This document shows positions 3,693 to 63,851 of a stretch of DNA of 64,000 nucleotides, piece after piece. The stretch is from NCBI GenBank assembly GCA_040752595.1, contig JBFMGX010000014.1, forward strand, positions 1 to 64,000, written 5' to 3'. The translations under genes were made by a program, and so were the position numbers. Under the pieces are notes generated by a model, which searched no databases, was not told the origin of the DNA, and saw only the letters and a list, made by a program, of their open reading frames with translations. Numbering within the stretch: the first letter of the stretch is position 1; every line of letters starts with the position of its first letter. The DNA is from Candidatus Zixiibacteriota bacterium (GTDB lineage: Bacteria; Zixibacteria; MSB-5A5; WJJR01).

Positions 3693-4011
3693 AAGGGGCT
3701 GAAGCCCCTTGTTTACCGTGTGAGACCAAACGGAGCGCTTTGGGGCACGGCGTGCCGTGCCCGTCGGGTGGGTGCTCTGCACCCACCGTTAGGGGGCTGA
3801 AAGCCCCCTGTCCGCGTACTTCGGTCGCAGAGATCGTCAAGGGGCTGAAGCCCCTTGTTTACCGTGTGAGAGCAAACGGAGTGCTTTCTGGGGGCACGGC
3901 GTGCCGTGCCCGTCGGGTGGGTGCTCGGCACCCACCGTCTGGGGGCTGAAAGCCCCCTGTCCGCAGGCCATTGCTCGGATGGTCTTCAAGGGGCTGAAGC
4001 CCCTTGTCCGC
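3693..4011. repeat. Family A palindromic repeat, tandem array with about 146-base period
   Basis: A unit containing AAGGGGCTGAAGCCCCTT, a GGCACGGCGTGCCGTGCC palindrome, a GGTGGGTGCTC..GCACCCACC palindrome and a GGGGGCTGAAAGCCCCC palindrome occurs at 3693 and again at 3839. A third partial copy starts at 3988. Each palindrome could form a hairpin. Similar elements recur throughout the window. The array separates two minus-strand thioredoxin-fold genes and abuts the start of the left one. Confidence 0.9.
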
Positions 4012-8727: not shown

Positions 8728-8904
8728 ATGGAGCGCAGGGAAGAGAGTACCGGACTTTGGTTCTGGCTGTTTCTGATCATCGCCATCTTCGTGCTCTACT
8801 GTCTGATGATGCAGCGTCCGTACTGCCGGACGCTCGACGGTGTCAGGAGCGATCGCGCCACTCCGTGCGCGTGGAATCAACCCGATGGCCGACCGGCCCG
8901 ATGA
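8728..8904 (+). CDS. Small single-span membrane protein, unknown
   Basis: A 58-aa candidate from ATG 8728, with AAGGATCGGG upstream as a weak ribosome site. A charged start (MERREESTG) precedes one strong hydrophobic helix (FWLFLIIAIFVLYCLMM, about residues 12-28) and a polar tail. It overlaps the start of the nucleotidyltransferase gene by 20 bases. I do not recognise it. The helix argues for a real protein, but it could be a chance ORF. Confidence 0.35.
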   Translation: MERREESTGLWFWLFLIIAIFVLYCLMMQRPYCRTLDGVRSDRATPCAWNQPDGRPAR

Positions 8905-9703
8905 ATCACTCACCGCGGTGGTACTGGCGGGTGGTCGCGGAACCCGCCTGCTGCCGTACACGACCTCCTTCCCCAAGCCATTGATGCCGGTCGGCGACCG
9001 GCCGATCCTGGAAATCCTGCTCGGGCAGTTGGCCGGACATGGGTTCGGCCATTTTGTTTTTGCGGTCGGGCATCTGGCGTCGCTGATCGAGGCATACTTT
9101 GGCGACGGCTCCCGCTGGGGTGTTCGAATCTCCTATTCCCATGAAGAATGGCCTTTGGGCACGGCGGCTCCGCTCAAAACGCTGGCCGACCGTCTGACGG
9201 AGGATTTCCTGGTCGTCAACGGCGATGTGCTCAGCGATCTCGATTTTGGTGCCTTCTTTCTGAACCATAGAATTAACACCCCGCGGCGCGTACTGACGAT
9301 AGCGACGCATCCGCGCACGCTCGATTCCGAGTATGGGGTCCTGCAGGCGGGCGCCGACGGACGTGTCCTCGATTACCTCGAAAAGCCCTCGTATCCGCTC
9401 TGTGTCTCCGAGGGAATCTACGCCTTCCGGCGGGAGGCGCTGGATTGGATCCCGGCGGGGCAACGCTTCGACTTCCCGGAGTTGGTGACGGCATTGATTT
9501 GCGATGGCCAGCCGGTGTACACCCACGAGCACACCGGGCTGTGGCTGGACATCGGTCGACCTGATGATTATGCACGGGCACAGCAAATGACCGCGGAGAA
9601 CCCGGAGCAGTTTGCCTTGCTGCGCGACGGCAGATCATCCGGGACACGGGAAGGGCCGGCGAGATGGCCGGCCACCCTCGCGGCGGCGTTACCGCACCGC
9701 TGA
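8885..9703 (+). CDS. Sugar-phosphate nucleotidyltransferase (NTP_transferase)
   Basis: 272 aa from ATG 8885, just ahead of the signature VVLAGGRGTRLLPYT..FPKPLMPVGDRPILE. FAVGHLASLIEAYFGDGS, PLGTAAPLK, FLVVNGDVLSDLDF (metal-binding Asp) and EKPSYPLCVSEGIYAF are typical of GDP-mannose/CDP- or dTDP-sugar pyrophosphorylases. The glycine-rich loop and the C-terminal HTGLWLDIGRPDDY place it with mannose-1-phosphate guanylyltransferase-like proteins, but the base and sugar cannot be fixed from sequence. It follows the rhamnose genes on the same strand, so it likely feeds the same surface polysaccharide. Confidence 0.8.
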   Translation: MADRPDESLTAVVLAGGRGTRLLPYTTSFPKPLMPVGDRPILEILLGQLAGHGFGHFVFAVGHLASLIEAYFGDGSRWGVRISYSHEEWPLGTAAPLKTLADRLTEDFLVVNGDVLSDLDFGAFFLNHRINTPRRVLTIATHPRTLDSEYGVLQAGADGRVLDYLEKPSYPLCVSEGIYAFRREALDWIPAGQRFDFPELVTALICDGQPVYTHEHTGLWLDIGRPDDYARAQQMTAENPEQFALLRDGRSSGTREGPARWPATLAAALPHR

Positions 9704-11399: not shown

Positions 11400-12521
11400 T
11401 CAGCGTCCGGCAGTGGCGGCGAGCGACGGATGCATGGGGGAGGCGGCTTCGAGTTCAGCGCCAGATACCCGATGGCCAATCCAGAGGGCCTGGATATCGG
11501 CGTACAGTGCCTGTGCCACAGCCCGATGATTGAAACGCTCCCGAACGAAGCGCATCCCTTCGGCATGGATCGGGTAGAGGGTGTCCGGGTCGGCCAGGTA
11601 TGATGCCAGCTTCCCCAAGAAGTCGGCGAGATCGGATTCCCGATAGGTGATGCAATGGACGCCGCCAAAGAACCCCAGATCGCGATAGCAGGGATGGTCG
11701 GGGCAAATCATGACTCCCCCGGTCGCCGTACCGCTGAACGCGACGGGAGGGGGATAATGCAGCCCCGATTCCAGCGGGGCAAACAAGCGGTAGCCATTGG
11801 CCAACTCGTCGCGGCCGCCGCCGGCGTCGGTCGGGAGACTGCCCTGCAACGGCACATCCAGCCAGTTCCGCAGCTCGGCGGTCGGGGCGGCAAGTCGCTG
11901 GGAGAAGTCACTCCGACGGGTCTCGGCCGCGGGGCCATCGGTCGAAAGAGAATGCGCGCGTTGCCATTGATTCTGGTCGGACGTGGGATCGTCGGTGCCG
12001 ATGGCGACGCACTTGTTCTTGCGAACGGCGAATGGCACGATGTCTGAGTGTCGGGGATGAAAGCCGACGGGGACGCCGATCACTCGCCCGGTGAACTCCG
12101 GGAAGGCGGCACGGAAGGCGGGATCGTAGCGGTCATGGGCGGCACACGCCATCAAGAAGTCGACCCGCCCTTCGACCAGCGCCTCGTGGACTTGCACGCA
12201 GTCTCGCATGCCGTCCATAATGTGATAGATCTTGAGCCCGGCGAATCGGCGCACCGGTTCGTGCGGGGGGATGTGCGGGAATCCATTGAAGCACAGCAAG
12301 ACATCGGCCTCGCGGTTGAGGACCGAGACCGAGTGAGTCACTTCGAAATCGTCAGCGGATAGGTGCTTGGCTTCGAGGAAGCGCGACAGCAACGGTCGGT
12401 CTTCGGCGCGCGACAGGAAGAGCAGCGGCTTGTACAGGCGCAGAAACTCGACGCCATAGTCGTGCGTCTGACGTGAATCGGTCAGGTATATCCAGTGCGG
12501 ATTCTGGACGGCGAGCTTCAT
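11400..12521 (-). CDS. GT-B-like glycosyltransferase, last gene of the small-protein operon
   Basis: About 373 aa from ATG 12521, whose ATGA overlaps the stop of the 77-aa ORF upstream; a GTG at 12542 is an alternative. The C-terminal third has the pattern of GT-B family 1/4-type enzymes: APLESGLHYPPPVAFSG, GGVMICPDHPCY, GVHCITYRESDLADFLGKL, a YLADPDTL segment and a final FNHRAVAQALYADIQALW helix. This resembles spore-coat CgeB-like glycosyltransferases. The N-terminal half is divergent. Translational coupling to the small ORF suggests that it acts with, or on, a product of the small proteins. Donor and acceptor are unknown. Confidence 0.6.
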   Translation of the reverse strand: MKLAVQNPHWIYLTDSRQTHDYGVEFLRLYKPLLFLSRAEDRPLLSRFLEAKHLSADDFEVTHSVSVLNREADVLLCFNGFPHIPPHEPVRRFAGLKIYHIMDGMRDCVQVHEALVEGRVDFLMACAAHDRYDPAFRAAFPEFTGRVIGVPVGFHPRHSDIVPFAVRKNKCVAIGTDDPTSDQNQWQRAHSLSTDGPAAETRRSDFSQRLAAPTAELRNWLDVPLQGSLPTDAGGGRDELANGYRLFAPLESGLHYPPPVAFSGTATGGVMICPDHPCYRDLGFFGGVHCITYRESDLADFLGKLASYLADPDTLYPIHAEGMRFVRERFNHRAVAQALYADIQALWIGHRVSGAELEAASPMHPSLAATAGR

Positions 12522-12751
12522 GGCCGGGTCCGTGGCTTGCACCGGGCCGGCGGGGGTTCGTCCGAGGGCGCCGTTCCGCCGCCGAAGAACCAGACGGACG
12601 CGACTGGTTCACGGATGCGATCGACGAACACCGAGTATCCGGTTGGACAGGTCGCTCCGGGTCCGCGCTTCCGTGATTGTCGAGGGCGCCTGGTCCCGGG
12701 GGCTCGTGCCGGCCGGCGTCGGTCGGCGGCGATGGTCGAGTTCGTCTTCAT
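12518..12751 (-). CDS. 77-aa basic small protein of unknown function
   Basis: ATG 12751 has an AGGAA ribosome site 8 bases upstream. Its TGA overlaps the ATG of the glycosyltransferase gene (ATGA), which argues that it is translated. The N-terminal half is rich in Arg/Pro/Lys; the centre reads PTGYSVFVDRIREPVASVWF, then GGGTAPSDEPPP. No signal peptide or known domain is visible. It is fourth of the four small ORFs in the operon. Position and coupling are the main evidence that it is real. Confidence 0.5.
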   Translation of the reverse strand: MKTNSTIAADRRRPARAPGTRRPRQSRKRGPGATCPTGYSVFVDRIREPVASVWFFGGGTAPSDEPPPARCKPRTRP

Positions 12752-12848
12752 GTCTCAGTTCCTGGACGAGTCGGGTGCCGTCCGCATCGCGGAACTACGA
12801 GGGAGGGATCGTGCTGCGACCCCTCCCCGTGTGGTTGTCGGACCGGTC

Positions 12849-13067
12849 TTACCCGTTGAAGTTCGGCGTCGGATTGTCGTTGGTGAAATCCAGCGTGCCG
12901 TGCAACACGATGCGATACTCGCCCGTGGTGGGGTTGATCGAATCGACTTTGCAACGGCACGTGGAGGAATTGAACAGCACCTCGGAGATCTTCCACTGCA
13001 AGCGCGACGGCGAGGTGGGGGTCTTCTCCACGGAGTGGATGTCGTTGATGGTCCAGTTGACTGGCAT
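12849..13067 (-). CDS. 72-aa small protein, paralogue 2
   Basis: Starts at ATG 13067 with a GAGGAGA ribosome site; the frame is open to 13094 without one. The sequence holds EKTPTSPSRLQ near residues 14-24 and the core NPTTGEYRIVLHGTLD at 45-60. About half of its residues match the neighbouring 71-aa protein. Cys 37 and 39 form a CRC motif absent from its paralogue. There is no signal peptide, TM helix or domain I recognise. The conserved core looks like a beta-hairpin. It could be a substrate, carrier or structural subunit of the operon. Confidence 0.75.
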   Translation of the reverse strand: MPVNWTINDIHSVEKTPTSPSRLQWKISEVLFNSSTCRCKVDSINPTTGEYRIVLHGTLDFTNDNPTPNFNG

Positions 13068-13130
13068 GTCTTTCTCCTCTACCGGGTCCTTCACCTTGTG
13101 GGGTCGGGCACACGGCTGTTGTGGCGCGGC

Positions 13131-13346
13131 TCAATAGCCGGGGCCGTACCAGTAGTTCGAGTTGTCCATGTCGAGCGTCCCCTGCAACACGATGCGGTAC
13201 TCGCCGGTCTCCGGGTTGCACGACTCGACCTTCGCCCGGGTGTTCACCGAGCAATACACCAGACTGGAAATGCCGCCCTGCAACTGCTTCGGCGATGTCG
13301 GGCACTTCTCCAGCGTCCGGAAGTCGTTAAACGTGAACTTGGTCAT
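13131..13346 (-). CDS. 71-aa small protein, paralogue 1
   Basis: ATG 13346 has a near-perfect AAGGAGGTGA ribosome site, so strong translation is expected. It shares EKCPTSPKQLQ (13-23) and NPETGEYRIVLQGTLD (44-59) with the 72-aa neighbour; the rest is diverged and the C-terminus is NYWYGPGY. Cys at 15, 32 and 43. A GG at 24-25 could suggest a leader cleavage site but is not conserved in paralogue 2. No signal peptide or known domain. Duplication and strong ribosome sites suggest an abundant product of the operon, not a regulator. Confidence 0.8.
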   Translation of the reverse strand: MTKFTFNDFRTLEKCPTSPKQLQGGISSLVYCSVNTRAKVESCNPETGEYRIVLQGTLDMDNSNYWYGPGY

Positions 13347-13389
13347 TTTGTCACCTCCTTCGTCAGCGTTTGGCGTGAGTGGGTGCGGA

Positions 13390-13593
13390 TTACCCCCGCT
13401 CCGGCTCGGCCGGTCCTTCGACGGTCAGACTTGGCCGTCCGGCCCGGCAGTTCAAAAGCAGGCGGTAGTGTGTTGTCGGTATGGATGGCTCCTCCGCGCC
13501 GGGGGACGGTTGCTCGACACGCACCGCCCGGCGGGTCGTCTTCACGGTCTTGCGCGTGTGCACGCGGATGAGAGGTTCAATGATGGTGTCCAT
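13390..13593 (-). CDS. 67-aa small protein coupled to the CphA-N-like gene
   Basis: ATG 13593 is preceded by GGGAGGGGA at a good distance and lies 17 bases inside the end of the upstream gene, so translation is probably coupled. The sequence begins MDTIIEPLIRVHTRKTVKTT, is basic, and has a Pro/Glu-rich middle followed by PTTHYRLLLNC. I do not recognise it. The PTT..YR.LL stretch faintly recalls the PTTGEYRIVL core of the paralogous pair, but this is too short to claim homology. Confidence 0.6.
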   Translation of the reverse strand: MDTIIEPLIRVHTRKTVKTTRRAVRVEQPSPGAEEPSIPTTHYRLLLNCRAGRPSLTVEGPAEPERG

Positions 13594-14248
13594 TACCATT
13601 CCCCTCCCCATTGTCCAGAAACCCGAAAGCCCCCAGCCCCGCGAAGGCCCATTTCCCCCGCGGCGGGGACCAGGACATCCAGCGTGCCAGCTCGATGCCG
13701 TCGCGGGGATCGGTCCGTGTCTCGCTCAACAAACGCGCCGATTGCACCAGGTCGCGGTAACGCCCCGATAGTCGCGGTTTGACGAACATGGCCCCCACGA
13801 GATAGGCGGCGAAATTGGCTGCAAATCCCCCCACGCGGGGGTCGACGCACTCCACAAACAGATCGAAGCGATTCTCCGGCACCCTGTGGCCGCAGGTGAT
13901 CCCCGAGCACAGGCGCATCCCCGACACGGCGCATTGCAGGTCGACGATCACGTGCTCGACCAGGTGCGCCACGTCCGCCACCTCGCCGACCCACTTGAGC
14001 GCCACGCCCTGTTGCGTGTGGAGAAACAGCGGCGTGTTCTCCCATTGCTCGCAGCAGGAGTGACGGGAGAGCGTGGGGAACAGTCCGGCCAAGGCCTGAT
14101 AGATCGTGAGAAAGCCGTTGGTGCGGGGCGGGTCGTACCCCTCCACGTCGAGCGTGACGACGAGATGCCGCCGCTCGGGGCGAAAATTGTGATTGAGCAT
14201 CCGTATCTGCGGAACACGGGCGTACTGGATGCGTCGAATCAGCATCAT
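13577..14248 (-). CDS. Stand-alone cyanophycin-synthetase N-domain-like protein
   Basis: About 224 aa from ATG 14248 (ATG 14245 equally likely; the frame extends to GTG 14308). It lines up with the N-terminal domain of cyanophycin synthetase CphA: RRHLVVTLDVE, then GFLTIYQALAGLFPTL.RHSC, then VAHLVEHVIVDLQCAVSGM (CphA-like HxxEHVxxxLQxxxGM) and RFDLFVECVDPRVGG. The ATP-grasp and Mur-ligase domains that make CphA an enzyme are absent, and none is encoded in this window. It is first in an operon with four small proteins and a glycosyltransferase. A binding or docking role for a peptide-like substrate is inferred from the family only. Confidence 0.6.
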   Translation of the reverse strand: MMLIRRIQYARVPQIRMLNHNFRPERRHLVVTLDVEGYDPPRTNGFLTIYQALAGLFPTLSRHSCCEQWENTPLFLHTQQGVALKWVGEVADVAHLVEHVIVDLQCAVSGMRLCSGITCGHRVPENRFDLFVECVDPRVGGFAANFAAYLVGAMFVKPRLSGRYRDLVQSARLLSETRTDPRDGIELARWMSWSPPRGKWAFAGLGAFGFLDNGEGNGNGHHH

Positions 14249-14861: not shown

Positions 14862-16592
14862 ATGGCCGAACCGGGTGATCAACAGCAGGGTTTGACACTC
14901 GCGTCCGCGCGGGACGGTTCGGCTCCGGCGATGCCGTCGCTCCGGTTCTGGTGGCGGGCGGCACTGATGGCTTCCGCTTCAGCGGCGGTGGCCCTGGGGA
15001 CCTTCCGGCTGTTCACGGCGCTGCCATGGGGACACTATTTCCCCTACTATTGGGACGGCGCTTCGGTTCTGGAGTCGGTCCAGCGCCCCGGTTTCCTTCT
15101 GGGGACCGATCCCGGTCTGAGCGACTACGCGCTGTCGAAGTACGGATACAGCGCCCTCGTATGGGTTGCCAACCGCTTCGTGGGGTTTGACGCGCCGCTC
15201 TATGTCGAGACGCTGTGGTTCCTGGTCTTGTTGATCGCACCATTCTTCGCGCCGGTCTTTCGCACTTCGGAGCGTTTCGGTTGGTTCGGATACTCCGTCT
15301 ATGCGGCGGGGGTGATCACCCTGCCGTTTGTCCACAAGTACGTCGGCATGGCCAATCCGACGATGCAGTCGACGGCGTTGTGGCTCTTGCTCGTGCTTTT
15401 CTACGCGCGGCGACGTGGCGAGCGGGGGGAGTTGATCGGGTGGGCAGTCGTACCGGGTTTGCTGTGCGCCGCCCTCGCGCTGACCGACTACAAGTGGATC
15501 CCCTTTGTCGTTGTCGGCGTTGCCGCCGTCGAGATTCTCGACCCGTTGCGACGACGTCATTGGGATGTGCGGGAATCCTGGCGCAGTGAGCGCGGCCGCA
15601 CGCTCAGGCGCGTGGTCCTGATTCTCTTCTGGACACCGGCACTCCTGGGGATCGTAGCGTGGGCCAACCCGGCATATCGGGAAGCGGTGTTGCGTTACGC
15701 CGTCTCGGGAAACACGATCGATGCTCTCCGTCCGGCGGTGTCATGGAATCTGTTGATCTTTCTCTGGGTATTGGGCGGCTTTTGGGCGGCCGTGTGGACG
15801 GTGTGGCATTGGTGGAGCGAGCACCGACGCATGAGACGAACGGATGCCTGGACTCCCGATGCGCTGTGGCCGGGACGCGTGTTGGCCATCCTGATTGTCG
15901 TGCTGTTCAGCGGGATCATGTGGCCACGTAGCGCGCGCATGTTCGCTCCGGCGGTCGTCTTCGGCATTTTGGTCTTCGCACGGCGGGCACAGCAAACGTG
16001 GGACCGCTGCGATGGGCGCGGGACGCGGCAGGTCGTGACGGCGGTCGGGCTGACGCTGGTCATGCTGGGATTCGCCTGGCGCAGTGTCCGGGCGGGGGAT
16101 TGCCATCGTCTACCGGGGGGCATTGAAAAGATGGCGCGACACATCGTCGCGCACAGGGAGCAAATCGGCCGCGCCCCGGTGGGGACCTACATGCTCCCGT
16201 CGTTTGCGCTGGCGACGGGTCCGGCGATCCGATGGTTCTTCCCGCCGGTTCGCGTAACCAACGAGACCGATTGGATCGTCACCAGCGATTTCCTCGATCC
16301 GGCGGGAATACGGGAGCAACAAGCGATGCGGCGCTACGACTGGCGCTGGACGGTTGACCGTTTTGAAACACGGGGCATCCTGGGCGAGTCCGGAGTGAAG
16401 GTCGCATCATTCCGCAATGAATTCTATACGTCGGCGGGCTATTGGTGCGAGTCGAGCTTTTCGGATGGCGAACTGCTGTTCATTCTCGATCTGGCTTCGA
16501 AGGAAAAGGAACCGACTTGGGACTTGCGCTATGTCGGCGGGATTTTCGGGCGGGCATTGCCGGACACGACGGGGATGGGGACAGGGCGGTGA
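14862..16592 (+). CDS. Polytopic membrane protein, possibly GT-C-type glycosyltransferase
   Basis: 576 aa from ATG 14862, with a strong GGAGGATGAGGA ribosome site. About ten hydrophobic segments lie between residues 30 and 410, followed by a roughly 170-aa hydrophilic C-terminal domain. After the first TM comes YYWDGASVLESVQRPGFLLG, an Asp-containing loop in the position used by GT-C enzymes. I recognise no specific family. It stands alone, upstream of an ABC-2 exporter and a repeat block. A role in polysaccharide or lipid-linked sugar metabolism is a guess from topology and neighbours. Confidence 0.6.
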   Translation: MAEPGDQQQGLTLASARDGSAPAMPSLRFWWRAALMASASAAVALGTFRLFTALPWGHYFPYYWDGASVLESVQRPGFLLGTDPGLSDYALSKYGYSALVWVANRFVGFDAPLYVETLWFLVLLIAPFFAPVFRTSERFGWFGYSVYAAGVITLPFVHKYVGMANPTMQSTALWLLLVLFYARRRGERGELIGWAVVPGLLCAALALTDYKWIPFVVVGVAAVEILDPLRRRHWDVRESWRSERGRTLRRVVLILFWTPALLGIVAWANPAYREAVLRYAVSGNTIDALRPAVSWNLLIFLWVLGGFWAAVWTVWHWWSEHRRMRRTDAWTPDALWPGRVLAILIVVLFSGIMWPRSARMFAPAVVFGILVFARRAQQTWDRCDGRGTRQVVTAVGLTLVMLGFAWRSVRAGDCHRLPGGIEKMARHIVAHREQIGRAPVGTYMLPSFALATGPAIRWFFPPVRVTNETDWIVTSDFLDPAGIREQQAMRRYDWRWTVDRFETRGILGESGVKVASFRNEFYTSAGYWCESSFSDGELLFILDLASKEKEPTWDLRYVGGIFGRALPDTTGMGTGR

Positions 16593-16603
16593 TCGCATGT
16601 AGA

Positions 16604-16728
16604 GTGGGTGCTCCGCACCCACCGTCTGCGGGCTGATGTTCCTCAATGCGCGGTGGGTGCAAAGCACCCACCCTACTCACTCCCTGTCCGCGATACGGAT
16701 CAACTCCAAGGGGCTGAAGCCCCTTGTT
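16604..16728. repeat. Family A palindromic repeat cluster
   Basis: GTGGGTGCTCCGCACCCAC, then GGTGGGTGCAAAGCACCCACC, then AAGGGGCTGAAGCCCCTT, separated by short spacers including CCTGTCCGCGATACGGAT. It lies between the membrane protein gene and the ABC ATPase gene. Confidence 0.85.
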
Positions 16729-21406: not shown

Positions 21407-23443
21407 TCAGGGTGTTGTGCAGGGATCGCAGAACTCGGTCGTCTTCACCGCGCCGCGGAAGGATACGTTGATCACGCGCACGACGTCCTGAAGGGTCGTT
21501 ACGGCGTCGCAGTCGACATCGGTCCGCTCCTGTGGGCATTGGGGATCGACCGTCGGTGCTGCCCCACGGAAGGCCACATTCACACATTGAACGACATCCT
21601 GCACATTGGCCAGGCTATCGCACTGCGGGTCACCGACACAGGGACAGAGGCAGGACGGTGATGTCACCGTGATGCGCACCAGAAATGTGTCCGTCAGAGC
21701 GCCATCGTCGGCAATGGCCAGGACACCGCGAACACCCTCATCGCCGGGCAGCGGCGCCAGAGACAATGTTCCGTGGCCGTTGCCGGAATCGACGAACGCG
21801 GCATAGTTGGGCAGCCCCAGCGCAGACAGGGCCGGGGCCGTGCAATTGGCATCGGTCGCCGAGATGAGCACCTCACGCGTCTCGGACACTTCGATTACGA
21901 TCGGAGCGACCGGCATCAGGACCGGCGCCTGCGGTTTGCTGATCCGGATGGTCATCTGGTCGCTGGTCTGGGACAGGACCTCGATCGAAATCCCGGAGGA
22001 ACCTGAGTAACCGTTGCTGGAGGGTGTCGTCGTCGGGGAACAGAGAGTCTGGCCCGGATCATTGGGGGAGTAGAGCGTGCCGACGCGGAATTCATAGGGA
22101 TACCACCACTCGGTGAACTCGGTCCCGTTCCAGGGATGGGCGGGATCGTATCCGGCGTCGACCACCGTCACGGCATAGTGGGAGTAGGAGGGCGTTCCGT
22201 CATTCGGAGACACCAGATCATCGATGTGGGTGATCAAGAGTCCGGCGTCCAGCGTGTCGCGTCCCGGCGTAAACCACGGGCAGTAGGCGGAGAAGTCGGA
22301 ATTGAGATGGTCGAACAACCCGGCGTTCCCCGGGTTGCGGTATTCCAGCAGGAAGTACTCGGTTCCCTGCGCATTGATGGGGATCTTGAAGAGGTTCTCT
22401 GCCGCGTGCTCTTCGATGTTGTACAGCGTGTAGGTTCCCTCCAGACAGGTGGGAATCACCGGCGTCGCCCATCCCAGGAAGGTGCGCGACCAGCCGCAGA
22501 AGTGCGACGGACACGAGCGGTTGCCATAGGCCATGATGTTGTACCCGCCGTAGCCCATGACGTCCCAGTCGACCAGAGGATGATCGTTCTCATCGTTGGG
22601 CGTGAAGTAGGTCGCGGTGTCCAGCTTACCATCGTAGTCGTACAGGTCGGGCATGCCGAGGATGTGTCCGTACTCATGGCAGAAGACGCGGATGCTGATG
22701 ATCTCGCCGCTCATGTGCTGCTCGGGCTGGACCGACCAGCGGTCGAGGGCGACGCCGTCAGAGGTCGGCACGTGCACGCCGCGATAGGCATGAGACCAGA
22801 TGTCATTGGGGTCATGCGTCTCCTCCTGCCCCGGGCCGGCATGGATGATCCAGAGCGCGTCGACATACCCATCGTGGTCGCCATCGTAGTCGGCGAAGTT
22901 GACAAAGGGGTCGACGGTGGCAACGATCTCGTTGATATTGTACCAACCGTTGTACCAGGAGCTCAGGTAGACCCACCCGAATACCGCGCCTGTGACCCCG
23001 AAGCTGCCGTAAGAGACCTCTTCATAGTAGTCGCGCACGCTGCCGGTCGGATAGAGATGGTCGGAGTATAGGAGAGAGTCGTACGCCTCGGCCGGGTGCA
23101 GCAGGGGGTTGGCGGGATGGTTCTCCCATTCGACCAGAATGGTGAGCACCCGACCGGTGGCGGCGGCGGGTGCCAGAATCTGCCGCCCCAACGGTGCCTC
23201 GGTTGCCTGTCGATCCGGTGAAAAGCCGGTGATCCGTTCGAATCCCATCCGGGGAATGTCGTAGACGTGAAACCGGGTGGGATCGACCGTGAGTTCGCCG
23301 CCGTACTTGGCCGTGATGGTCACGGCGTTGGGAGGGAGTGAGGGGAGACGGGCGGCAGAACTGACCGCAGCCAACAGGAAGGTCGACCCAATGGCCATGA
23401 GGCCGAGCGGAATCACCCCGCCGAAGCGTCGGAACGCAGACAT
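21407..23443 (-). CDS. Exported M6-family metalloprotease with dockerin-like tail
   Basis: 678 aa from ATG 23443, which has a GGAGG ribosome site. A signal peptide is followed by an M6 (immune inhibitor A-like) catalytic domain. The zinc motif FCHEYGHILGMPDLYDYD has HExxH at about residues 256-260, and VMGYGGYNIMAYGNR lies downstream. A beta-rich middle follows. The last 75 residues carry two EF-hand-like loops (GDPQCDSLANVQD and DVDCDAVTTLQD) flanked by Cys-rich CPC and CDPC motifs, like the repeats in the 963-aa protein at the end of the window. It is a secreted endopeptidase, probably anchored or assembled through this tail. Confidence 0.88.
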   Translation of the reverse strand: MSAFRRFGGVIPLGLMAIGSTFLLAAVSSAARLPSLPPNAVTITAKYGGELTVDPTRFHVYDIPRMGFERITGFSPDRQATEAPLGRQILAPAAATGRVLTILVEWENHPANPLLHPAEAYDSLLYSDHLYPTGSVRDYYEEVSYGSFGVTGAVFGWVYLSSWYNGWYNINEIVATVDPFVNFADYDGDHDGYVDALWIIHAGPGQEETHDPNDIWSHAYRGVHVPTSDGVALDRWSVQPEQHMSGEIISIRVFCHEYGHILGMPDLYDYDGKLDTATYFTPNDENDHPLVDWDVMGYGGYNIMAYGNRSCPSHFCGWSRTFLGWATPVIPTCLEGTYTLYNIEEHAAENLFKIPINAQGTEYFLLEYRNPGNAGLFDHLNSDFSAYCPWFTPGRDTLDAGLLITHIDDLVSPNDGTPSYSHYAVTVVDAGYDPAHPWNGTEFTEWWYPYEFRVGTLYSPNDPGQTLCSPTTTPSSNGYSGSSGISIEVLSQTSDQMTIRISKPQAPVLMPVAPIVIEVSETREVLISATDANCTAPALSALGLPNYAAFVDSGNGHGTLSLAPLPGDEGVRGVLAIADDGALTDTFLVRITVTSPSCLCPCVGDPQCDSLANVQDVVQCVNVAFRGAAPTVDPQCPQERTDVDCDAVTTLQDVVRVINVSFRGAVKTTEFCDPCTTP

Positions 23444-23835
23444 GATGTAACCTCCAATGGCCAATGCGTGCGGACCTGTCTCGGGACGCGACAGGGTGGT
23501 TGAACGCTACCGCCACCATGAATATAGAGCCCGTCAGTCACTTGTCAATTCACAAGTTGCGTCGGCCGTGGCGACAGCGTCGCCAATGTCCGTTCGCCCA
23601 GACGTCCGGCGATGCCGTGACCAATGACCCTGCATCACCGACCGGTCGAGCCACGCCGCAGCGATGGCATGCGCCCTCACCGGGACTTGCCTGTTATTGG
23701 TGACACCGAACCGGACAGGGCGATTGATATCCGCCTGTAAGTCTGTTACATACATCGGGGCTGCGGCTCCAGGCAAGGGGCGCGGAGCGGGCGGATCAGC
23801 GACGCGATCCGCGATAGGCGGAAGGACAAGGTCGT
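23444..23835. other. Divergent intergenic region
   Basis: About 390 bases between the M6 protease (minus) and the saccharopine dehydrogenase-like gene (plus). No supported ORF. A sigma70-like promoter for the plus-strand gene lies at 23724-23752. Confidence 0.5.
23724..23752 (+). promoter_or_regulatory. Sigma70-like promoter for the 23836 gene
   Basis: TTGATA and TACATA are separated by 17 bases, about 85 bases before the ATG at 23836. Motif match only. Confidence 0.4.
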
Positions 23836-28536: not shown

Positions 28537-28568
28537 CGCCCCGCTGCACTATTGTGGCGGGGCGTTTT
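28537..28568 (+). terminator. Rho-independent terminator after the subtilase
   Basis: CGCCCCGC and GCGGGGCG form an 8-bp stem around a 12-base loop, followed by TTTTGTTT. Confidence 0.75.
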
Positions 28569-28577
28569 GTTTGGAAT

Positions 28578-28747
28578 GTAGGGTGGGTGCTTTGCACCCA
28601 CCGTCAGGGGGCTGAAAGCCCCCAGTCCGGAATTTCGAACGACATGAGAGGATTGGTAGGGGCACGGCGGGCCGTGCCCACGGTGTGTCACGGACCCTGG
28701 CCCTCGTGAATCGGAAGAGCGAGATGGTGGGCGGAGCCGACCCTATG
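28578..28747. repeat. Family A palindromic repeat cluster
   Basis: GGTGGGTGCTTTGCACCCACC, GGGGGCTGAAAGCCCCC, GGGCACGGCGGGCCGTGCCC and GGTGGGCGGAGCCGACCC in sequence, between the subtilase terminator and the convergent TauE-like gene. Confidence 0.85.
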
Positions 28748-29489: not shown

Positions 29490-29516
29490 GGGGATGTGGT
29501 GTCGTCTCGTGGATTA

Positions 29517-29605
29517 AGGGTGGGTGCTCCGCACCCCCCATCAGCGGGCTGAAAGCCCGCTGTCCGCGATTGGCTCTTGGTGGGTGCCAAGCACCCACCC
29601 TACAT
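29517..29605. repeat. Family A palindromic repeat cluster
   Basis: GGGTGGGTGCTCCGCACCCCCC, GCGGGCTGAAAGCCCGC and GGTGGGTGCCAAGCACCCACC, between tauE-like and birA. Confidence 0.85.
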
Positions 29606-45159: not shown

Positions 45160-46679
45160 GCAGCCATCCGCCCCCGATCACCACGGCGCCATCGGTCGAT
45201 GCCGAGCAACGGCGGCGCGCCCACACGGTTCTCAAGGCGCTGTTCGCGGCCTGGCGCGCGGCGGCTGTCTATGACGACAACAACGCCGGCTACCGCAGTC
45301 GCCGTTCGGAACTGGACGAGGCGCTGGCCGATCTGTTCGACCACGGCAGTGATTGCCGGATCAGCTATCAGAACGACTACCTTTTCTTCAACGGCGAGCG
45401 CCTGAACTACGACCGCGAGTTCTCATCCGGACGGCCATTGGCGGAACGGTTCGGTGAATTGGGACTGGGCGATCTGACGATCCACGCCGATGCGTCTCCC
45501 GACCAGATCGACCAGGCGCTCTTCGCGCTTGCCGAGGCGGGCCGTCGTCCTGACCGGACATTCGACGCGCTGCGTGAGACATGGACGGGACTTGCGATCA
45601 CGGGCATCACGATCGGCCCGCTGTCGTTGCACGGCAGCCGGCTCCCATCGTCCGGGGCGACCACAACCAACTCCCAGGAAGCCCGTCGCCGCCGTGCCCT
45701 AGCGTTGTTCCAGCGCTCGGAAGCAGTCGTGCAGGATTTCTGGGAGCGGGTACGGGACCGCAACTCCTTTGATTCCGGCTCGGTCCAGCGCACTGTGCAT
45801 CAATTGATCGACGAAGTTGCCGGCGAGGAGGACATTCTTTTCGAGTTCGCCGCGCTGAAGGATTTCGATGAGTACACGTTCTACCATTCGGTCAACGTCG
45901 CCATCTACTCCATCGCCGTCGGCATGCGTCTGGGGCTGGACCGGATGGCGTTGACGCGCCTTGGCCTGGCGGCCATGTTGCATGACATCGGCAAAGTCAA
46001 ACTTCCGCGCGACCTCATCACCAAACCGAAGGAATTCGACGAGGACGACTGGACGCAGATCAAACGGCACCCGGCGCTCGGCGCTCTCACCATCGCCAGT
46101 ATGCGACCGCTCGATGCGCAGGTGAGTACGGCGATGGCCGGGGCTTTCGAGCACCACCTCAACGTCGACCTCTCCGGATACCCGACCTTGACAAGACCGA
46201 GGGTCCTGCAACTTGAGTCCCGGATCATCGCGCTCTGCGACGCCTTTGACGCGATGACCTCGGGGCGGGTCTACCAGAAAGAGGCGATCAGTCCGGATGA
46301 GGCGATGCGGCGGCTCCTCCACCAAGGGGCCACCCGGTATGATCCCTTGGTGGTGAAGGCGTTTGTCCACACGGTCGGTGTCTTCCCGGTGGGAACGGTG
46401 GGACGGCTGTCGGATGGATCGCTGGCGGTGGTGATCCGAAACGATTCGACGGATCTATATGCTCCCGTGGTCCTTGTGATCCGCGATGCTCATGGGGTGC
46501 CGGTGCGAACAGAGAGGCGACTCGCCCCGCAGCCGGATGCGCCGGCAGACGAACGTCTACATCTGATGGAAATCCTCAACCCGCGGGATGTCGGGGTCAA
46601 CGTGGCCGACTACATCGGCGTGATTAATCCCGCCGAACCCGACGCATCGAACGAAGCTCTCGCCGGTGTCGCCCTGTAG
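45156..46679 (+). CDS. HD-GYP domain protein with an N-terminal sensor-like domain
   Basis: 507 aa, starting inside the stop of the HEAT gene. Residues 20-130 carry a domain with LKALFAAWRAAAVYDDNN, CRISYQNDYLFFNGERLNYD and GDLTIHADASPDQIDQAL, laid out like the N-domain of the HEAT protein. The HD-GYP domain has His244 (FYHSVNVA), His276-Asp277 (LHDIGK), KRHP near 305, and HHLNVDLSGYP at 333-343. HD-GYP enzymes hydrolyse cyclic dinucleotides such as c-di-GMP. The final 100 residues form a beta-rich C-domain (RLSDGSLAVVIRND). It is followed by a family A repeat block. Confidence 0.85.
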   Translation: MSSHPPPITTAPSVDAEQRRRAHTVLKALFAAWRAAAVYDDNNAGYRSRRSELDEALADLFDHGSDCRISYQNDYLFFNGERLNYDREFSSGRPLAERFGELGLGDLTIHADASPDQIDQALFALAEAGRRPDRTFDALRETWTGLAITGITIGPLSLHGSRLPSSGATTTNSQEARRRRALALFQRSEAVVQDFWERVRDRNSFDSGSVQRTVHQLIDEVAGEEDILFEFAALKDFDEYTFYHSVNVAIYSIAVGMRLGLDRMALTRLGLAAMLHDIGKVKLPRDLITKPKEFDEDDWTQIKRHPALGALTIASMRPLDAQVSTAMAGAFEHHLNVDLSGYPTLTRPRVLQLESRIIALCDAFDAMTSGRVYQKEAISPDEAMRRLLHQGATRYDPLVVKAFVHTVGVFPVGTVGRLSDGSLAVVIRNDSTDLYAPVVLVIRDAHGVPVRTERRLAPQPDAPADERLHLMEILNPRDVGVNVADYIGVINPAEPDASNEALAGVAL

Positions 46680-46680
46680 C

Positions 46681-46798
46681 GGCGGGTGCTTTGCACCCAC
46701 CGCCAGGGGGCTCGAAGCCCCGTGTCAGCAAGGGAATGCAGGTTCGAGGACAGCGGGTTTTCAACCCGCTGATGGTGGGTGCAGAGCACCCACCCTAC
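46681..46798. repeat. Family A palindromic repeat cluster
   Basis: GGCGGGTGCTTTGCACCCACCGCC, GGGGGCTCGAAGCCCC, GCGGGTTTTCAACCCGC and GGTGGGTGCAGAGCACCCACC between the convergent HD-GYP and lepA genes. Confidence 0.85.
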
Positions 46799-60959: not shown

Positions 60960-63851
60960 TCATTGGATCGGTGGACAGTTGGTCGGATAGGGATCACATT
61001 GACAGGGATTGCAGATCCGTGTCGCCGGATCATACCCTCGGAAGGCAACGTCCGCCATCCGAACCACATCCTGCACATTGCAGAAACCACTACAGTCCAA
61101 GTCGGTGCGCTGGGCTGGATTGCCGCTTCCACACAACGGGTCAAATGTCGGCGCTTTGCCCCGGAAGGCCACGTCGGTCGTCGCCACCACGTCTTGGACA
61201 TTCGTTATCGTGTCGCAGTACGGATCCCCCAAGCAGGGACAGTGACAGGCAACGGTGATCGTTCCTTTCGTGAACGACGGCACCCTGATCTGCGGCGTTT
61301 CGCAGGCGGCCCCACCCACGAATTGCAGATGATTCCCCGGTGCCACGCAGCCGGTGTCGATCTCGAACGTCCCCGGATTCATGGTCACGTCGAATGTGAG
61401 GATGAACGAGGCGTTGGCCGTCCCCGGCGGATCGGCACCGGCGGCCAGGACATCATTGGGAGGCTGGGCGAGGCTCGTATACGACCACAGGACGCCATCT
61501 GGGCTCACGAAATCCACAGTGGGTGCCGGAGTCTGATAGCTGTTCGCCGTCGGTCCGCTACACGATGTGCCGCTGGGCGTGGCATAGTATTGCTTGGCCC
61601 CTGATCCCTGGCCGACGGGACTGGCGCCCACGCGGTTGGCGGGTGGGACGCTGAGCACCAGTGAATTGGCGATGTAAGCGCCGCCTGTCACGGTGCGAAT
61701 ATCCAGAGGCAGCGTGATCGCCGAGATGTCGATGTCATTGGTGATGGCGATCCCCGCCTGCACGCTCGTGGCGCCCAGCCAGACAGTCTTGGATTCGACC
61801 ACCACAGCGCCACCGGGGTCCGTCTGCCACGCCAAACACGAGGCACAATCACACGAGTTGCAGAAGATCACATCCGGATCGTACTCCTTGAACGCGGCGC
61901 AGACCATCTTGATGACATCGAGGATGTTGGTGCCATCGTCGCAGTTGACGTTGGTCCGCTCCTTCGGGCAATTGGGATCGAAGACAGGAGTCTGCCCGCG
62001 GAAGGCGACGTTGACTGCCGCGTTGACATCAATGACCGTGACCTCTCCATCGCAATTGGGGTCGCCGTCGCAGGGGCAGTCGCAGATGGTGATGACACCT
62101 TTGGTGAACGCCGGGAGGAATGGCGGCGGGTCGCAGTCCGGTGTGCCCATGAACAGCAGGTGATTCCCTGGGGCGACGCAACAGGTGTCGATCTCGAATA
62201 CCCCGCCGCTCCCGTTCACGTCGAAGGTGAGCAGGAATGAGGCATTGGCGGTACCGGGCGGATCCGCGCCCACTGGCAGAATGCCGGCGGGTGGTGGACC
62301 CGTTACAAATCCGGACCACAAGACCGCATCGGGGCTGATGAAGTCAACCGGCCCCTCCGTCTGGTAACCGCTGGAGATCGGGCCGCTGCAGTTGCCGTCG
62401 GCGGTGGGGTAGTAGCGCTTGTCAATGCTCCCGGAAGCGATCGGACTTGAGCCGACTCGGTTGCCGGGGGGAACGGTCAGGGTAAGCGCGTTGGCAGTGA
62501 AAGCACCGCCGCTGACAGTGCGGAACTCCAGTGGCAGCACGATCCCGGTCAAGTCCATCTTGTTGGCCAGAGAAACCCCGACCTCCACGCCGACCTCGTT
62601 CTTCTGCACCATCTTCGATTCCACCACGACGGATCCGCCGGGAGTCACGGGCGGGCGCTGACATGACGGGCAGTCGCAGGAGTTGCAGAAGAGCTGAGCC
62701 GGCGAGTAACCATGGAAGGCGACACATTCGAACAGTCTCACGTCGAGAATGTTGGTCACGTCATCGCAGTTGACGTTCGTTCGCTCCTTCGGACAGTCGG
62801 GATCGAATACCGGAGCAGCACCGCGGAAGGCGACGTTGACCGCCTGCGTAAGATCGGTGACAGTCACGAAGCCGTCGCAATTGGGATCGCCGTCACAGGG
62901 ACAATCGCAGAGGGTGATGGTTCCCTTGGTGAATGTCGGCAGGCGAACCTCGGCATTACAGCCGTTCCCGGCCGTGAACATCAGGTGATTCCCCGGGGTG
63001 ACACAACAGGTGTCGATCTCAAACGTCCCGACGTTGGCGTTGGCATCGAAGGTGAGCAGGAAGCTGGCGTTGGCCGTCCCCGGCGGGTCGGCGCCCGCGG
63101 GCAGCATGTCTCCGGGTGGGACAGTCGAGCTGTACCCGGCCCACAGGATGCCGTCGGGGCTGACATAGTCCACAGCGCCCGCTCCCGTCGTGTACGTGTA
63201 TGAGATCGGCCCGCTGCAAGGCATACCACCGGGCATGGGATAGTACAGGCTTGTGACCGCGCCGGTGCCGACCGGGCTTGAGCCGACACGGTTGGCGGCC
63301 GGGACCGTGAAGGAGAGGTTGGCTGCAATGTAAGCGCCTCCAGTGACGGAGCGAAGCTCCAGCGGCATCACGATAGCCGAGATGTCGACGTCATTAGCAA
63401 TCGAGATGCCCACCTGAACCCCTGCTGTTGCGGGCGGAACTCTCTTGGATTCAACGGTGACCGAGCCACCGGTATCCGTGGGCGTGGGGATGCAGAACCA
63501 GCACGTGCAGGAATTGCAGAAGCACTGGTCGTGCGGGTCCCCGTGGAACAGATAGCCCACCATCTTCGTGACGTCGAGCACGTCGGTGACGCCGTCGCAG
63601 TTGAAGTTGGTTCTCTCCTTGGGGCAATCGGGATCGAACACAGGTGGCGAGCCCCGGAACGCGACGTCGACTGTATGCGCCAGATCCACGACGGTGACAA
63701 TGCCGCTGCAGTCTGGGTCGCCGTCGCAGGGGCAATTGCAGGTGGCGACTCCGGCCGTCGCCGGGGACGGCTCCGCCACCGGGATGGCAGCCCATGCCGC
63801 CGTAGAGGCCAGCAGAACTAAGACAACAGACAAACAGGCCGCGCGCTTCAT
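60960..63851 (-). CDS. Exported protein alternating four dockerin-like and three cohesin-like domains
   Basis: 963 aa with AAGGAGG upstream of ATG 63851. Signal peptide 1-22. Dockerin-like domains at about 38-120, 315-397, 590-672 and 869-955 each carry two EF-hand-type loops (for example GDPNCDGFVTVTDL and NVNCDDVTNILD) bracketed by Cys clusters (CPCDGDP at the start, CNSCxCxxC at the end). Between them lie three beta-rich domains of about 185 aa (127-310, 404-585, 679-865) with shared GGSVxVESK, ANRVGSSP, DPPGTANASFLLTFD and APGNHL motifs, resembling cohesins. The period is about 277 residues. It could be a surface scaffold or adhesin; binding partners are unknown. Confidence 0.85.
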   Translation of the reverse strand: MKRAACLSVVLVLLASTAAWAAIPVAEPSPATAGVATCNCPCDGDPDCSGIVTVVDLAHTVDVAFRGSPPVFDPDCPKERTNFNCDGVTDVLDVTKMVGYLFHGDPHDQCFCNSCTCWFCIPTPTDTGGSVTVESKRVPPATAGVQVGISIANDVDISAIVMPLELRSVTGGAYIAANLSFTVPAANRVGSSPVGTGAVTSLYYPMPGGMPCSGPISYTYTTGAGAVDYVSPDGILWAGYSSTVPPGDMLPAGADPPGTANASFLLTFDANANVGTFEIDTCCVTPGNHLMFTAGNGCNAEVRLPTFTKGTITLCDCPCDGDPNCDGFVTVTDLTQAVNVAFRGAAPVFDPDCPKERTNVNCDDVTNILDVRLFECVAFHGYSPAQLFCNSCDCPSCQRPPVTPGGSVVVESKMVQKNEVGVEVGVSLANKMDLTGIVLPLEFRTVSGGAFTANALTLTVPPGNRVGSSPIASGSIDKRYYPTADGNCSGPISSGYQTEGPVDFISPDAVLWSGFVTGPPPAGILPVGADPPGTANASFLLTFDVNGSGGVFEIDTCCVAPGNHLLFMGTPDCDPPPFLPAFTKGVITICDCPCDGDPNCDGEVTVIDVNAAVNVAFRGQTPVFDPNCPKERTNVNCDDGTNILDVIKMVCAAFKEYDPDVIFCNSCDCASCLAWQTDPGGAVVVESKTVWLGATSVQAGIAITNDIDISAITLPLDIRTVTGGAYIANSLVLSVPPANRVGASPVGQGSGAKQYYATPSGTSCSGPTANSYQTPAPTVDFVSPDGVLWSYTSLAQPPNDVLAAGADPPGTANASFILTFDVTMNPGTFEIDTGCVAPGNHLQFVGGAACETPQIRVPSFTKGTITVACHCPCLGDPYCDTITNVQDVVATTDVAFRGKAPTFDPLCGSGNPAQRTDLDCSGFCNVQDVVRMADVAFRGYDPATRICNPCQCDPYPTNCPPIQ

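Follow-up and report, generated by a model that had tools for sequence, protein, structure and literature searches.

This study concerns a compact minus-strand operon in a 64,000-nucleotide stretch of DNA from a Candidatus Zixiibacteriota bacterium (positions 1 to 64,000 of contig JBFMGX010000014.1, assembly GCA_040752595.1; hereafter the window). The operon was confirmed, and the first five of its genes constitute a conserved module, i.e., a protein resembling the N domain of the cyanophycin synthetase CphA1 (named C) together with small proteins of 67 amino acids (aa; X), 71 and 72 aa (A and B) and 77 aa (Y). C retains the complete metal site of a peptidase domain and travels with X and A/B, and we tentatively propose that the unit is a dedicated-peptidase module, in which C would be a zinc peptidase acting on its co-encoded small partners. 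The module and its small-protein families are a new system, whereas C itself belongs to a known domain family.

Layout of the operon

All six minus-strand open reading frames (ORFs) delineated in the initial annotation were recovered at the same coordinates, and the overlaps and Shine-Dalgarno (SD) sites described there were likewise confirmed. The features of the locus are as follows:

13577..14248, minus strand: C, CphA1-N-like metallopeptidase domain plus winged helix (PF18921, fold match)
13390..13593, minus strand: X, small basic protein of 67 aa with a variable sequence (motif YRxVLxC, position)
13131..13346, minus strand: A, small protein of 71 aa, paralogous to B (motif TGEYRIVLQGTLD, A clade)
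12849..13067, minus strand: B, small protein of 72 aa, paralogous to A (motif TGEYRIVLHGTLD, B clade)
12800..12828, minus strand: 12-bp RNA hairpin directly 3′ of B, without a T-run (folding z −2.97)
12518..12751, minus strand: Y, small basic protein of 77 aa carrying a WxFG motif (SVWFFGG; position and motif)
11400..12521, minus strand: glycosyltransferase-like gene (GT), a neighbour and not a conserved member (PF13524, below cut-off)

The start of X overlaps the stop of C by 17 bases, and Y and GT are joined by an ATGA overlap. Relatives suggest the second Met of C (14245) as its likely start. Both A and B are preceded by strong SD sites, i.e., GGAGGTGA (the same in relatives) and GAGGAG, respectively. 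The operon stands above chance, since the ratio of nonsynonymous to synonymous substitution rates (dN/dS) against the same-genus genome L060 is 0.18 for A and 0.16 for B, since A/B relatives occur in dozens of genomes over several phyla, and since the X and Y ORFs are conserved by position and motif. Most of the compared genomes are environmental-DNA assemblies, and absences reported below may be assembly gaps.

C retains the metal site of the CphA1 N domain

C (223 aa) matches the Pfam family PF18921 (E = 3.8e-8; 33.7 bits against a cut-off of 27), with the CphA1-N-like domain spanning approximately residues 25–156. In CphA1, the N domain hides a metallopeptidase, whose Cx19HxxEH site probably binds zinc and which cuts cyanophycin into primers, and mutation of H57, C59, H79 or E82 impairs the primer-independent activity of CphA1, which depends on this domain (PMC9262961). 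The metal-site motif in C reads H63-x-C65 and H95-xx-E98-H99-xxx-D103. Among 39 C homologues, the counterparts of SuCphA1 H57, C59, H79, E82 and T101 are identical throughout (39/39), that of H83 is kept in 38/39, and that of E87 is D or E in 39/39; P58, R127 and D129 of C are also invariant. In contrast, the cyanophycin-contacting R70 is not conserved (W86 in the window copy and variable among homologues), nor is SuCphA1 R100. Because the metal site is kept while R70 and R100 are not conserved, C looks to have an intact peptidase chemistry directed at a substrate other than cyanophycin and, judging from its sequence, it is probably an active peptidase.

The structure of C predicted by AlphaFold2 (AF2) is confident (predicted local distance difference test, pLDDT, 87; predicted template modelling score, pTM, 0.87), and the best 11 matches of a fold search of this model against the PDB were all CphA1 or CphA2 (best E 1.1e-5; query-normalised template modelling score 0.57). 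C thus has in common with the CphA1 N domain (PF18921; PDB 7lg5 and 7txv) both the fold and the complete HxC...HxxEHxxx(E/D) site, but differs from it in standing alone without ligase domains, in its longer spacer between the Cys and the HxxEH motif and in its non-conserved R70/R100 positions, as well as in having co-encoded small proteins and an added winged helix. C has ca. 60 extra C-terminal residues with a helix-turn-helix (HTH)-like helix arrangement in the AF2 model, the HTH/winged-helix region lying at approximately residues 163–210, and the same part of homologue L117 scores above the Pfam cut-off for the winged HTH family PF13412.

Although earlier described as derived from a peptide ligase, the domain is, with its metal site intact, to be read as peptidase-like and not ligase-like. 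C is not a member of the cyanophycin synthetase family TIGR02068 (33.1 bits, where more than 850 are required for a protein with ATP-grasp and Mur-ligase domains), and no CphA1 above the TIGR02068 cut-off was found in 129 Zixibacteria genomes (0/129); a role of the locus in cyanophycin metabolism was therefore rejected. The HxxEH motif is also found in the M16 inverzincins (pitrilysin, insulin-degrading enzyme), to which the CphA1 N domain has been called distantly related (PMC9262961). C nevertheless differs from these enzymes in its size (ca. 220 aa vs. a large two-domain protein) and in its third ligand, which is an upstream Cys where M16 peptidases have a downstream Glu, Asp or His, and it has no M16 match in Pfam.

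As a separate observation, a second Zixibacteria genome contains a CphA-N-like stretch within a frame of 486 aa (G030:C528:7824-8231; TIGR02068 positions 17–151, E 1.7e-24), which is perhaps another CphA-N fusion.

A and B are ancient paralogues

A and B are 55% identical and share the core NPxTGEYRIVLQGTLD, in which TGEYRIVLQG is near-invariant; over 73 A/B sequences, S34, T48, G49, E50, Y51 and G57 are invariant. Convincing relatives were found in 21/132 genomes of the phylum, mostly as a tandem pair (for B, with best E values below 1e-13 in 20 other genomes), while a scan of ca. 85,000 species genomes plus Acidobacteria, Eisenbacteria and KSB1 sets placed the family in Zixibacteria, Acidobacteria, Eisenbacteria, Latescibacterota, KSB1 and Caldithrix. 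Loci carry one to four tandem copies of A/B-type genes. In a tree based on few columns, and with many weak forks, A and B fall into distinct clades throughout Zixibacteria, and two clades are also seen in Eisenbacteria/Latescibacterota, suggesting that the A/B duplication is old. The tails of A and B, directly preceded by the conserved block, are short, aromatic at the C-terminus and conserved within clades.

No match past the cut-off was obtained for A/B in Pfam, NCBIfam, PHROGs or PADLOC, and a profile search of the PDB returned a single, chance-like match of 14 residues. The low-confidence AF2 model of B (pLDDT 69) comprises a pair of helices plus a hairpin, and searching with its fold gave no match under E 0.001.

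Solitary B-type genes apart from C were observed at G130:C51 (L063) and G129:C1 (L066), in genomes that also carry a full or cut-off module.

X is recognised by a C-terminal motif

X was at first regarded as a non-conserved ORF, as phmmer finds no relatives for it. This view was overturned by the analysis of position and motif: only a seven-residue motif near the C-terminus is conserved (YRxVLxC; HYRLLLNC in the window copy), which explains why an ordinary homology search missed the protein. At 22/23 intact Zixibacteria C loci, the ORF overlapping or directly following C contains Y-[RKA]-x-x-[LFIVYH]-x-C, against a background of 29 of the 6,316 ORFs of Zixibacteria loci, these 22 included. Outside Zixibacteria, the motif occurs at a fixed position close to the C-terminus in 15 of 5,207 ORFs, and all of these (15/15) lie immediately upstream of A/B-type genes; since the motif was built on Zixibacteria loci and adjusted after other loci had been seen (R/H at position 2), this count is a largely, though not wholly, independent test. 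Among 27 aligned X proteins, Y43 and C49 are invariant, and the YRxVL run is in register with that of A/B. The genes are arranged as C-X-A-B in Zixibacteria, but as X-s-s-C outside them (with s an A/B-type gene).

C co-occurs with A/B and X

In Acidobacteria, C and A/B were both present in 14 genomes and one without the other in none (297 genomes), and in Eisenbacteria the corresponding numbers were seven and none (47 genomes). These two counts use strong C matches only, the weaker ones lying mostly in CphA1-sized frames. Among Zixibacteria, 19 genomes have both, two have A/B only and four have C only; KSB1 yielded nine genomes with both, one with C only and ca. 20 with A/B only. The Fisher values for this co-occurrence are very small, although they ignore shared ancestry. 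In G129, one of the Zixibacteria with A/B only, the B gene is a fragment at a contig end and C may simply be unassembled, while in RBG-1 (G010) C and an A/B-type gene occupy separate loci. Within the Zixibacteria module, C and X are the core pair and A/B are the usual partners.

Loss follows the same pattern. In G001, G002 and G004 (L087, L086 and L085), the C found at a locus adjacent to RarA is shortened and its metal site is no longer intact. X, A and B have disappeared there too, and this joint loss is a natural sign that metal site and small genes belong together.

The initial annotation had made its reading depend on small ORFs that are conserved and accompany the CphA-N-like gene. This stood as regards their conservation by position and motif, with A/B reaching over several phyla, but not throughout, as the four genomes of family f14 have C and X with no A/B, and C went undetected in ca. 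20 KSB1 genomes with A/B-type genes.

Singly occurring A/B-type genes of the type LSGxxLKxQIxxML...TGEYRIVLQG were observed in KSB1/Caldithrix genomes G133, G135, G136, G137 and others, where C went undetected; these are perhaps an independent use of the A/B family.

Y and the hairpin downstream of B

The hairpin directly downstream of B (12828–12800) had been absent from the initial annotation, which instead reported a terminator-like hairpin with a T-run at the end of GT. The latter is present (11383–11371), but its region folds no better than shuffles (z +0.57), and the hairpin behind B is much stronger. A strong hairpin of differing sequence follows B in nearly all related loci; an Rfam search gave no match. 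It is followed by a short ORF for a basic protein with an aromatic motif at its end (e.g., SAWFFG or SCWWFG), and nine of the 11 matches to this pattern among the 6,316 ORFs sit at the place behind B. Y had first been regarded as a non-conserved ORF as well (no phmmer relatives, no codon bias), a view again overturned by position and motif. The window copy of Y, which has a tail past the motif, shows a codon usage that is not gene-like and is therefore the least certain gene of the module. Y was found in Zixibacteria only, with none seen outside.

At two loci (L065, ca. 8840–9275; L088, 8030–9064), the place of Y directly after a B-type gene is taken by histone-H1-like TRKTTRKPVTRKAT repeat proteins, which carry TRKTTRKP repeats. 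Basic low-complexity sequence plus a hydrophobic motif, as in Y, is presumably also a feature of phasin/histone-H1-like granule proteins such as PhaF. In contrast to such systems, however, the module has no conserved association with genes for polyhydroxyalkanoate (PHA) or granules, and Y has no sequence match to these proteins.

Proposed mechanism and alternative readings

Module conservation, the intact metal site, the fold match, the winged HTH region, the co-occurrence and the joint loss were computed here; beyond C keeping its peptidase site and travelling with X and A/B, we infer the following. C would be a free-standing counterpart of the CphA1 N domain, working as a zinc endopeptidase and carrying a winged helix of the DNA-binding type, and would be made together with X, A, B and, in Zixibacteria, Y. 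It would bind the Y-R-x-V-L beta strand common to X and A/B much as the CphA1 N domain binds cyanophycin, and would cleave or mature A/B, which would associate into a hetero-oligomer. X, which is coupled to C and has an invariant Cys at the position taken by Gly in A/B, would serve as a zinc-binding (cysteine-switch-like) inhibitor or as first substrate, and the winged helix could couple cleavage to transcription or DNA. As parts of this proposal, it is quite possible that X, A and B are substrates or an inhibitor of C, while a cysteine switch in X is improbable. We likewise consider it doubtful that the module represents a new class of proteolytic control, with C held by a co-translated, Cys-bearing X and acting on A/B via YRxVL.

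IrrE/PprI, whose fold we take to be unrelated to that of C and which presumably carries an HExxH motif, offers a functional analogy only. In the IrrE/PprI-DdrO switch of Deinococcus (PMC5552922, PMC10904395), a zinc protease governs a response by way of its own dedicated substrate protein. The candidate substrates here are, in contrast, proteins of 67–72 aa without an HTH, and the HTH-like region resides in the putative peptidase.

Several observations weigh against the dedicated-peptidase proposal. The tails of A/B are conserved within clades, unlike typical cores of ribosomally synthesised and post-translationally modified peptides (RiPPs), and cleavage of A/B is not visible in their sequences. 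The profile link between X and A/B is weak (hhalign 22%). That A/B are not obligate substrates follows from family f14, which has C and X but lacks A/B, and from ca. 20 KSB1 genomes in which A/B-type genes occur and C went undetected. Finally, the shortened C of G001, G002 and G004 comprises the C-terminal half only, in an open reading frame clearly similar to the intact C of L072; that this half outlasts the metal site is a natural sign that it has some use without the peptidase half, and indicates that part of C works without peptidase chemistry. This half, which adjoins a RarA-like gene in these genomes, may represent a re-use of the non-peptidase part.

This retained half also bears on the main rival, i.e., a regulatory or scaffold role of C with zinc or peptide binding. 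In its explicit form, which we consider somewhat unlikely, the metal site would bind a zinc or peptide signal, the winged helix would repress the operon, and X, A and B would be the regulated proteins with a job of their own, for instance joining the basic Y in a complex associated with the nucleoid or with a polyanion. The presence of the winged helix, its persistence after metal site and small genes have gone, the histone-H1-like proteins in L065 and L088 and the KSB1 A/B genes without C would all suit such a regulator. Yet E98, the general base, and the ligands of the metal are invariant or nearly so, which goes beyond what sensing alone would need, and the decayed C proteins keep their C-terminal half where X, A and B are gone.

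A structural assembly of A, B, X and Y (a filament, granule coat or shell), with C as its maturation or quality-control protease, seems unlikely. It would accommodate the ancient A/B split across Zixibacteria with a comparable two-clade split in Eisenbacteria/Latescibacterota, the strong SD sites, the one to four tandem copies and the low confidence of the B monomer model, as seen for oligomer-dependent folds; it is at odds with the lack of a match to any known structural family and of other assembly genes conserved nearby. Very improbable is a RiPP-like or secreted-peptide system, with X/A/B as precursors and C as leader peptidase: multi-copy small genes beside a peptidase and short aromatic C-terminal tails do recall such systems, but the module has neither a transporter nor a tailoring enzyme as a conserved companion, the sequences show no evident signal peptide, and clade-conserved tails behind a conserved block differ from a leader with a hypervariable core. 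The initial view of all six genes as one glycosylation or assembly operon can hardly be upheld: the ATGA overlap that joins Y to GT speaks for it, but GT occurs at no other module locus and hardly at all in the phylum, and cleavage is better supported than the small-protein glycosylation or ligation suggested there.

If the module does represent such a new class of proteolytic control, this would suggest that the CphA peptidase domain has, or descends from, an independent existence as a dedicated protease. The third activity of cyanophycin synthetase gains a possible free-standing relative with partners of its own, and a testable route to the origin of that activity. The families X, A/B and Y defined here are lacking from the libraries searched (Pfam, NCBIfam and PHROGs). 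Neither the module nor stand-alone PF18921 N domains were found described in searches of the open-access literature (with subscription papers and bioRxiv outside the scope of this search), and the earlier statement that no described system has such a makeup was borne out, as no counterpart was found for C plus four small genes. Because it is kept across several uncultured phyla, the module probably does something general that is as yet undescribed.

Glycosyltransferase and flanking genes

GT is a weak call (PF13524, 20.2 bits against a cut-off of 25). It is found at no other module locus, and within the 129 Zixibacteria genomes a relative occurs in one other genome (33% identity, on another contig) and in none of the remaining 127. 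GT was therefore rejected as a module member, and of the compact six-gene operon first proposed, only C and the four small genes stand as a conserved unit.

No flanking gene is conserved across families, including transporter, tailoring, exporter or other assembly genes. A third conserved flanking gene was considered and rejected, the large clusters being shadow ORFs or common unrelated genes, and the RarA-like gene adjoins C only in families f3 and f12. A phage, plasmid or known-defence origin was likewise rejected, as the A/B profile had no match in viral contigs, B none in plasmids and C no homologues in a phage collection, and PADLOC returned no match for C, A or B.

Other features of the window

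Six dispersed copies of a 74-nt element were noted (3742–3815, 3891–3964, 16578–16651, 28557–28630, 29494–29567 and 46656–46729). The element contains the palindrome GGTGGGTGC..GCACCCACC, has related short palindromes (AAGGGGCTGAAGCCCCTT) nearby, and by its sequence looks like an intergenic repeat of the repetitive extragenic palindromic (REP) or miniature inverted-repeat transposable element (MITE) type. On the minus strand, 60960–63851 encodes a 963-aa protein that has no Pfam match and contains three internal repeats of ca. 830 nt as well as dockerin-like CxCPCxGDPxC motifs, and an M6-like peptidase at 21407–23464 ends in a similar motif.

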